A stretch of DNA of 64,000 nt from Nitrospirota bacterium (GTDB taxonomy: Bacteria; Nitrospirota; Thermodesulfovibrionia; Thermodesulfovibrionales; UBA6898), in contig JAJRYC010000090.1 in NCBI GenBank assembly GCA_024275975.1, positions 1 to 64,000 of the forward strand, read 5' to 3'. Under the pieces are notes generated by a model. It had not been told where the DNA came from. It saw nothing but the letters and a program-made list of their open reading frames with translations, and ran no database searches. Position numbers and translations under genes: made by a program. Shown here in pieces: positions 28,037-30,561 of this stretch (the stretch's first letter is position 1; each line of letters begins with the position of its first letter).

Positions 28037-28537
28037 TCACAATTTTATGAGCGTACGCGTTAATGCCCTGTCTTTTTTCGATAGCTGCCGGGGATTGCCC
28101 TTTCGATGTACCGGCCCGTCATCTTCTTCCTCTGGTTCGCGCCCGTATCCGCCGTAAAGGGATTCCCCTGTTTTTTCAATAATGGACAGGAATTTCTCCG
28201 ACGGGATGGGGCCCGAGCCGCATGACCAGGCCGCCGCCATTATCTCCCTGTCGGAACTTATGACGATCCATTCTTTTTTTTCCTGCCTGATAATCCTTTT
28301 TATGACATAGTCCGCTTTTTCGCCAAGTCTTGAATAGATGACTTTTACTCCGCCGGTGGTCAACGACGCCTCCCTGCCGCCGCCGGACTTCCATCCGTCA
28401 AATACAACCGTTATATCATGGCCACGGATTTTTGTATACCGGATAAGCGAGCTGACAAGGCTTTCCCTCTGCCCGGCCAGGTCGCCGTGGCTGGTGCCTA
28501 TAAGATTGTAACCATCAACAATTATGAAAGAAATATC
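28037..28537 (-). CDS. YacP-like NYN-domain ribonuclease, start codon unresolved
   Basis: The frame encodes a NYN/PIN-like domain: FIIVDGYNLIGTSHGDLAGQ (first acidic site), DITVVFDGWKSGGG (second) and VISSDREIMAAAW (third). These match the YacP/Rae1 nuclease family, which cleaves mRNA on ribosomes in Firmicutes. The open frame begins after a TAA at 28573-28571, but no ATG, GTG or TTG precedes the first conserved Asp. The first usable start (TTG at 28363) would remove the catalytic DGYN motif. So the start is CTG or another rare codon, or the start was lost. It follows the purH-like gene on the same strand. Confidence 0.65.
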   Translation of the reverse strand, partial: DISFIIVDGYNLIGTSHGDLAGQRESLVSSLIRYTKIRGHDITVVFDGWKSGGGREASLTTGGVKVIYSRLGEKADYVIKRIIRQEKKEWIVISSDREIMAAAWSCGSGPIPSEKFLSIIEKTGESLYGGYGREPEEEDDGPVHRKGNPRQLSKKDRALTRTLIKL

Positions 28538-28559: not shown

Positions 28560-29267
28560 CTAAGCAGTCTTTAAAAAAGGCTTTACATCCTTCTGGAAAT
28601 CCAGACCGGAGAAGTAGTCGCCTATCGCTTTCCTATATTCACCTATCGCCCGCATCGCCTCTTTCGCCAGATTAAATCTTAATTCAAGGCTTATCGATCC
28701 ATTGTTTTCCCCGAGAGACCTTAAGAATTCCGGGTACTGCGAAGGCGCGGTCAGCGCTGCAATGCCGTGCCAGTTTTTGGCCGAGGCCATCGTCATTGCC
28801 GGTCCGCCGATATCGATGTTGACTCTTGCGGTCTCGGATGTGACGCCTTCCTTCGAGATAACGGAAGTAAAAGGATAAAGGTTACCGATGAAGACATCAA
28901 AATACACGCCGGGACCGCCTCCGGTCCGGGCCAGTGTTTTGTACAGGTATTCCTCGTGGGCTGGGTTGCCCCTCTCGGCAAGCAGGCCGGCATGGATCTT
29001 CGGATGCAGGGTCTTTACAAGCCCTCCTTCCATCTCGGGCGCGCCGGTGAAATCTTCAACGGATAAATAGTTTTTCGAAGCGTCCGGCCCGAGTATTTCG
29101 GTGATCTTCTTGCCGGTTCCGCCGGTGGAATAGAATTTCACGGACGGATTACTCTTCTTTATCCCTTTTACAATCTCATCAAGACCACCTTTGTCGAATA
29201 CGCTTACAAGCACGTTAGCCGGCATTATCAGATCGATAACGCTGTAGATGTTTTCCCTGATGCTCAT
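28560..29267 (-). CDS. Standalone IMP cyclohydrolase (PurH N-terminal domain only)
   Basis: This 235-residue protein covers the MGS-like IMP cyclohydrolase half of PurH, which closes FAICAR to IMP. Motifs include YSTGGTGKKITEIL, GGLVKTLHPKIHAGLLAERG and DIGGPAMTMASAKNW. The C-terminal AICAR formyltransferase half of normal PurH (about 300 residues) is absent, and the next gene does not encode it. Split forms are known, with a separate formyltransferase elsewhere. Ends in TAG. Confidence 0.85.
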   Translation of the reverse strand: MSIRENIYSVIDLIMPANVLVSVFDKGGLDEIVKGIKKSNPSVKFYSTGGTGKKITEILGPDASKNYLSVEDFTGAPEMEGGLVKTLHPKIHAGLLAERGNPAHEEYLYKTLARTGGGPGVYFDVFIGNLYPFTSVISKEGVTSETARVNIDIGGPAMTMASAKNWHGIAALTAPSQYPEFLRSLGENNGSISLELRFNLAKEAMRAIGEYRKAIGDYFSGLDFQKDVKPFLKTA

Positions 29268-29283: not shown

Positions 29284-29451
29284 TTAAGCCCTGTCACAGG
29301 ACCTTCCGGCTATCCGCTCCCAGGTCTTTTCATCTATTTCGTCAATATATTCCGATATGTTAAACTTTTTGCCGCAGTCCATGCAGCGCAGATTAATGGC
29401 GCGTCAGCCTGACGCAAGTGTTAACTCGCCGTCACAAATTTTACACTTCAA
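29284..29451 (-). CDS. Candidate dual-CXXC small selenoprotein (in-frame TGA read as Sec)
   Basis: A 55-codon reading frame starts at TTG 29451, with AAGGAG seven bases upstream, and ends at TAA 29284. The predicted protein is LKCKICDGELTLASG-U-RAI followed by NLRCMDCGKKFNISEYIDEI and a Cys-containing tail. It has two CXXC motifs (residues 3-6 and 23-26) around an in-frame TGA at codon 16 (29406-29404). This matches the layout of a known small (seleno)protein family with dual CXXC motifs, so I infer Sec. About 20 bases after the TGA, a 5-base-pair stem (GCTGC with GCGGC) encloses a 7-base loop with GG, as expected for a bacterial SECIS. It lies between mglA and purH on the same strand. Role unknown, probably redox or metal binding. 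Confidence 0.72.
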
Positions 29452-29466
29452 GGTTTGACTCCTTTT

Positions 29467-30054
29467 TCAGCAGTTTCTTTTCAACTCTGTTAAAACCTGT
29501 CTGGCGACGGTTTTCAATGTCTCAAAAACGCCTATTCCGGTAATCGCGACCGCCTCGATCGCCGGCACCTTCCTTGTATTCAGCAGTCTGTTCATCGTCT
29601 CGACCGGCATTGTATTTTTAAGGTCCCGTTTGTTGTATTGCATTGTGAAAGACAGTTTGTCCAGTTGATATCCCTGCTCGGCGAGGTTTATCCCGAGATC
29701 GTCGAGGCTTTCGATGTTCGCTTCCATCCTCTCGAGCTGGCTGTCGGCGACGAATACAACACCGTCAACACCTTTCAGTATAAGTTTCCGGCTTGCGGCG
29801 TAGAAGATCTGGCCGGGGACGGTATAGAGATGAAATCTTATTTTGAATCCCTTGATACTGCCGAGCGCAAGAGGGAGAAAGTCGAAAAAGAGCGTTCGGT
29901 CGGTCTCCGTGGCCAGAGAGATGAGCTTGCCTTTCTGCTCGGGATTGGTCTTCTTATAGACATACTGCAGATTTGTGGTTTTTCCGCAGAGTCCCGGACC
30001 ATAGTAAACAATTTTACAGTTGATTTCGTGTGAAGAATAGTTTATAAAAGACAC
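29467..30054 (-). CDS. MglA-like small Ras-family GTPase
   Basis: This 195-residue GTPase is of the MglA type, which sets cell polarity and type IV pilus or gliding motility in Myxococcus and Thermus. The P-loop is YYGPGLCGKTTNLQYVYKK. Switch II reads HLYTVPGQIFYAASRKLIL, and the base-recognition motif is MQYNKRDLKN. Its partner gene, a roadblock protein, lies 12 bases upstream in the same operon, as MglB does for MglA. Given pil genes in this window, control of pili is a plausible role. Confidence 0.88.
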   Translation of the reverse strand: MSFINYSSHEINCKIVYYGPGLCGKTTNLQYVYKKTNPEQKGKLISLATETDRTLFFDFLPLALGSIKGFKIRFHLYTVPGQIFYAASRKLILKGVDGVVFVADSQLERMEANIESLDDLGINLAEQGYQLDKLSFTMQYNKRDLKNTMPVETMNRLLNTRKVPAIEAVAITGIGVFETLKTVARQVLTELKRNC

Positions 30055-30066
30055 TTACCGGGTCAC

Positions 30067-30561
30067 CTATTTGAAAAGATTGTCAATATCTTCATCACTG
30101 ATCTCAGCGAAAGGAGACTCTTCGACTCCACCTTCAGTTTGTTCCTTCTCCGCTTTTGTCGAAATGTCTTCGAAAATTTCGGCAAGGGCTTCGGATGCTT
30201 TTTTAACCCTCAGGCGAACCAGTCCCAGAGATGATCCCTGGTCAAAGATAACCACCAGTATGACTCTCTTTCCGATCAGGGATATATGTATGTTATCTTT
30301 TTCACCTTCGTGAAAGAGTATGGTAAACTCTTTTTCTCCAAGAAGGTGCGCTATCTCGCTGGTGGCCGCGATGTTGCCGGCGGTCAGTGAAGCGAGAGAT
30401 GTCGTGTCTATGTCCTTGGTATCTCCCGTTGAGGCAATCAGCTGTCCGTTTTTATCTACAAGGAATACGACTTTGGCGTTAGCCTGACGGGAAAGCTTTC
30501 GCAACTCCCCGTCGATTCGGAGGAACTCCTCCTCATACATTATAAGATCTGAACTATTCAT
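30067..30561 (-). CDS. Roadblock/LC7-domain protein (MglB-like)
   Basis: The 164-residue protein has one roadblock/LC7 domain (about 15-125), visible in VVFLVDKNGQLIASTGDTKD and LASLTAGNIAATSEIAHLLG, followed by an acidic tail. MglB homologues act as GTPase-activating proteins for MglA. It is encoded immediately before the MglA-like gene. The name by neighbourhood is an inference; roadblock folds alone do not show GAP activity. Confidence 0.85.
   Translation of the reverse strand: MNSSDLIMYEEEFLRIDGELRKLSRQANAKVVFLVDKNGQLIASTGDTKDIDTTSLASLTAGNIAATSEIAHLLGEKEFTILFHEGEKDNIHISLIGKRVILVVIFDQGSSLGLVRLRVKKASEALAEIFEDISTKAEKEQTEGGVEESPFAEISDEDIDNLFK

Follow-up and report, generated by a model that had tools for sequence, protein, structure and literature searches.

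The stretch of DNA analysed here (the window; 64,000 nucleotides, positions 1 to 64,000 of contig JAJRYC010000090.1 of the Nitrospirota bacterium assembly GCA_024275975.1) carries on its minus strand a short reading frame with a single in-frame TGA, lying in a row of closely spaced genes. The features of this row, in the order of the minus strand, are as follows:

30067 to 30561, minus strand: MglB-like Roadblock/LC7 protein, beside mglA
29467 to 30054, minus strand: MglA-like small GTPase, the upstream neighbour, ending 15 nt before the selenoprotein gene
29459 to 29464, minus strand: ribosome binding site AAGGAG, 7 nt 5' of the TTG, recognised from the sequence
29284 to 29451, minus strand: candidate selenoprotein gene, TTG start, 55 codons plus TAA stop
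29434 to 29445, minus strand: first CXXC motif, CKIC, codons 3-6, its Cys columns invariant in alignments
29404 to 29406, minus strand: in-frame TGA, codon 16, between CKIC and CMDC, read as selenocysteine (Sec)
29374 to 29385, minus strand: second CXXC motif, CMDC, codons 23-26, its Cys columns invariant in alignments
29371 to 29387, minus strand: SECIS-like hairpin GCUGCA-UGGAC-UGCGGC, 6 pairs, the loop starting 22 nt downstream of the TGA
28560 to 29267, minus strand: stand-alone PurH N-terminal (IMP cyclohydrolase-like) protein, 16 nt downstream, without the transformylase part
28037 to 28393, minus strand: YacP-like NYN-domain protein, farther downstream, linked to the gene in 14 genomes from 5 family-level groups

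With the TGA taken as Sec (U), the minus strand from 29451 to 29284 translates as LKCKICDGELTLASGURAINLRCMDCGKKFNISEYIDEIDEKTWERIAGRSCDRA*. The first-pass annotation had described, at these coordinates, a short and otherwise intact frame with a TGA between two CXXC motifs and a good ribosome binding site, all of which hold, the TGA being the only one in the 55 codons; the strand, which it had left unstated, was found to be minus, and the plus-strand reading of 29284-29451 showed nothing notable. TTG is the sole usual start codon available, since the nearest upstream in-frame stop is the terminal TGA of mglA itself. Standard gene finders would split this 55-residue gene at the TGA and hence miss it. 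An Rfam scan of the region returned a chance match only. As mglB, mglA, the selenoprotein gene and the purH-like gene lie close together on the same strand, their co-transcription is likely.

The protein matches the NCBIfam model NF041197, "dual CXXC motif small (seleno)protein", with 62 bits when Sec is entered as C (hmmscan) and with 52.5 bits in the genome scan of the source genome, in both cases above the curated cut-off of 40 bits, so that the known family of small dual-CXXC (seleno)proteins to which the gene had been attributed at first pass is indeed the one it belongs to. It is a new member of this already catalogued family, with which it shares its size, the two CXXC motifs and a Sec/Cys position between them. 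In the excerpted text of a 2026 review of the selenoproteome (PMC13188914), NF041197 is listed among the known prokaryotic selenoproteins as OS_HP3 / hypothetical protein DW, no function is given for it, and two different motifs, RxU and GxU, are printed for this single family. The residues preceding Sec are S-G in the present protein (SGU) and often F-G or I-G in its relatives, in contrast to the RxU or GxU of that text. A Pfam search of the protein gave no family above its cut-off.

Conservation was analysed in a set of 101 related genomes (Nitrospirota, Thermodesulfovibrionales), the source genome (G000) included. A homologue (E <= 1e-4) was present in 90 of them, 86 with exactly one TGA and 4 without; compared with NF041197 as catalogued, the gene stands out in being nearly constant throughout the order Thermodesulfovibrionales, where it is nearly universal. 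Among 88 distinct homologues, the TGA was found at exactly codon 16 in 84, while the other 4 (L055, L056, L057 and L058) displayed TGC or TGT, so that TGA or a Cys codon, and nothing else, occupies this position. The TGA is retained across 12 family-level groups, and when the family model was run across the phylum, 396 genomes in all, NF041197 was detected in 152, with a single TGA in nearly every case. Past the TGA, changes fall mostly at third codon positions, and codons 17-55 yielded dN values of 0.16-0.31 and dS values of 1.0-3.7 in eight comparisons of relatives with the window gene, indicative of strong purifying selection on this part of the frame. In two alignments of homologues (A3 and A4), all four cysteines of the CXXC motifs are invariant, as is the Sec/Cys residue; in the wider set, L103 and L104 have Asp replacing the first cysteine. 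Many homologues, though not all, have an extra cysteine close to the C-terminus (residue 52). A second, divergent paralogue (L111; G083:C1:1672641-1672766) likewise has its two CXXC motifs separated by an in-frame TGA.

The AlphaFold model of the protein, of modest confidence (mean pLDDT 68, pTM 0.44), consists of a strand at residues 9-14, a turn with Sec16, a strand at residues 19-23, and short helices. Its best fold matches were weak (E 0.3 and worse), the better-ranked ones being mostly zinc-ribbon or zinc-finger chains. A PDB profile match (E = 0.1) to 7zok (gliding motility protein X) was set aside as too weak to serve as evidence. The protein shares its shortness and its two CXXC knuckles with small zinc ribbons of the CXXC...CXXC type, LysW among them, but it differs from these in carrying Sec between the knuckles, and its LysW-like and zinc-ribbon profile matches are weak, far under the cut-offs of those families. 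We infer a zinc-ribbon-like scaffold bearing an exposed selenol, in which the two CXXC knuckles of the 55-residue product would probably bind one zinc (or iron), with Sec16 placed in the turn that joins the two strands connecting the knuckles. The selenol of Sec16 would most likely be the reactive group of the protein, serving redox chemistry or metal/thiol handling, an assignment to which we give an even chance of being right. The protein could instead be a structural zinc ribbon acting as a small adaptor in which Sec16 is an extra metal ligand and no redox centre exists; the invariance of the four cysteines of the CXXC pairs and the distant resemblance to zinc-ribbon chains agree with such a role, which nevertheless seems rather unlikely, as one metal is already satisfied by the four CXXC cysteines and the modest-confidence model puts Sec in an inter-strand turn.

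For the hairpin downstream of the TGA, the first-pass annotation had proposed a stem of five pairs with a GG-containing loop about 22 bases away; the loop and its position were recovered, and the stem was found to comprise six pairs instead of five. With a loop UGGAC, 6 bp, a spacing of 22 nt and a folding energy of -8.6 kcal/mol (53-nt fold), the hairpin falls within the ranges that the excerpted text of PMC13188914 gives for bacterial SECIS (bSECIS) elements (loop of 3-9 nt, stem of 4-16 bp, G in the first two loop positions, spacing of 16-37 nt, and MFE <= -7.5 kcal/mol). The loose stem ranges also accommodate 98% of synonymously recoded controls and so do not discriminate, the weight resting on the test of codon constraint described below. 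Relative to dinucleotide shuffles, the energy of the window hairpin is unremarkable (z = +0.57, not significant), which makes the hairpin unconvincing by itself, and the beyond-chance evidence comes from the relatives. In these, the five inner pairs are kept in 82-84 of the 84 distinct TGA homologues and the GG of the loop in about 90%. The conservation extends to wobble positions: (i) Arg-22 is encoded by CGC in all 55 cases (background 15-16%), (ii) Cys-26 is encoded by TGC in 80 of 84 (background 64%), and (iii) the third base of codon 24 is G whichever residue is specified (Met, Thr, Arg, Lys, Leu or Ala), with ACG used in 13 of 14 cases for Thr (background 23%). When the 84 sequences were compared with their own synonymous recodings, the hairpin was more stable in the natural sequence (mean z of -1.84), and in 83 of the 84 it surpassed half or more of the recodings in stability; as the homologous sequences are related, these hairpin counts do not represent independent events. 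In the Thermodesulfovibrio-like group, the stem is shifted outward (e.g. GCUCUGC...GCGGAGC) and still present. Taken at the codon level, the homologues show a constraint on the RNA beyond that imposed by the protein sequence.

The source genome, 97% complete, was found to hold all four genes of the selenium machinery, namely selA (E=5e-153), selB (371 bits), a tRNA-Sec gene (selC) with a UCA anticodon, and selD (348 bits; G000:C68:27926-28849, L048). As selD contains one in-frame TGA, the selenophosphate synthetase is probably itself a selenoprotein. The UGA at codon 16 would be read as selenocysteine with the help of SelB, tRNA-Sec(UCA) and the hairpin; the stem of the latter begins 16 nt 3' of the UGA. 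Within the genome set, the occurrence of the Sec or the Cys form tracks the machinery in part. Of the genomes with the Cys form, G005 is devoid of selA, selB, tRNA-Sec (selC) and selD, and G099 has a broken selA and neither selB nor selD; to judge from this natural exchange of Sec for Cys in lineages that have lost the pathway, Cys is able to replace Sec. G066 and G095, also with the Cys form, have retained selA, selB and tRNA-Sec (G066 being without a selD match), so that the Cys replacement is not solely a response to loss of the pathway. Conversely, G011, G057, G082 and G084 display the TGA form without a selA match; since each retains other Sec genes, this pattern points to assembly gaps.

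A further match to the tRNA-Sec model in the source genome, at first sight a second selC, was rejected as such, ARAGORN calling it a tRNA-Cys. This tRNA-Sec-like tRNA (G000:C91:10675-10768; L052 3976-4067, minus strand) has a GCA anticodon and scores 57 bits against the tRNA-Sec model; it resembles the selC*-type tRNA-Cys reported for Nitrospirae among others (PMC7609411). In two other genomes (G066:C20 and G075:C15; L205 and L206), a second selB lies beside a selC*-type tRNA-Cys (GCA), in addition to a normal tRNA-Sec and selB, an arrangement described for two deltaproteobacterial orders (PMC7609411). The existence of such a tRNA in the source genome raises the question of whether cysteine is inserted at the UGA, in which case the product would be a Cys protein encoded with an unusual codon, and recoding of UGA to Cys by a tRNA of this type together with SelB has been reported (a title cited by PMC8762117; also PMC7609411). 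However, the GCA anticodon reads UGC/UGU, a normal UCA tRNA-Sec is present alongside, selA and selD are found in the same genome, and genomes without the Sec pathway have switched the codon to TGC/TGT, which together render cysteine insertion very improbable.

That the UGA is a true stop, as it is at the end of mglA, leaving a 15-residue peptide or a pseudogene followed by a chance frame, is hardly conceivable, given the purifying selection on the 39 downstream codons and the identical TGA kept across the 12 family-level groups, and given that a pseudogene would neither retain the TGA nor exchange it for Cys only. Judged on its sequence, the locus very probably encodes a bona fide selenoprotein of NF041197 in a Thermodesulfovibrionales (Nitrospirota) bacterium, a reading already put forward in the first-pass annotation and now supported by the Sec genes, the conserved hairpin, the Sec/Cys homologues and the family match. 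The genome, in which automatic gene calling would overlook the gene, gains a well-supported selenoprotein.

As to the genes around this putative selenoprotein, the adjacency to mglA noted at first pass is real, but the linkage is confined to a few relatives and uncharacteristic of the family, and was consequently rejected as a functional clue. The PurH N-terminal protein is linked to the selenoprotein gene in 19 genomes, all of one family-level group. Proteins with a C-x2-C-x(2-3)-CC motif were encountered at a distance of at most 1.6 kb from the gene in 33 of 89 genomes, representing six family-level groups, as against none of 168 more distant ORFs. They comprise a downstream cluster (24 genomes, five groups), on the same strand with a median gap of 2 nt and located upstream in one genome, and an upstream, divergently oriented cluster (19 genomes, four groups). 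One downstream representative matches Pfam PF03692 just above the cut-off, and two other representatives, one per cluster, gave no PF03692 match above it. The YkgJ-type CxxCxxCC proteins (PF03692) are, like the dual-CXXC selenoprotein, cysteine-rich and are its genetic neighbours in relatives, but they constitute a separate protein family. One might speculate that the selenoprotein provides these proteins with a dedicated selenol partner, for instance in metal or electron exchange with their cysteine cluster; we consider this idea doubtful, and no such functional assignment was found in the literature searched. A homologue of the downstream-type protein occurs in 51 of the 101 genomes; it is absent from the source genome, with none beside the gene in the window, which makes the link suggestive and not obligatory. 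The CxxCxxCC linkage offers a lead, open to testing, on what family NF041197 does. Example loci in which a CxxCxxCC (YkgJ-type) gene adjoins the selenoprotein gene are L120, L124, L080 and L062.
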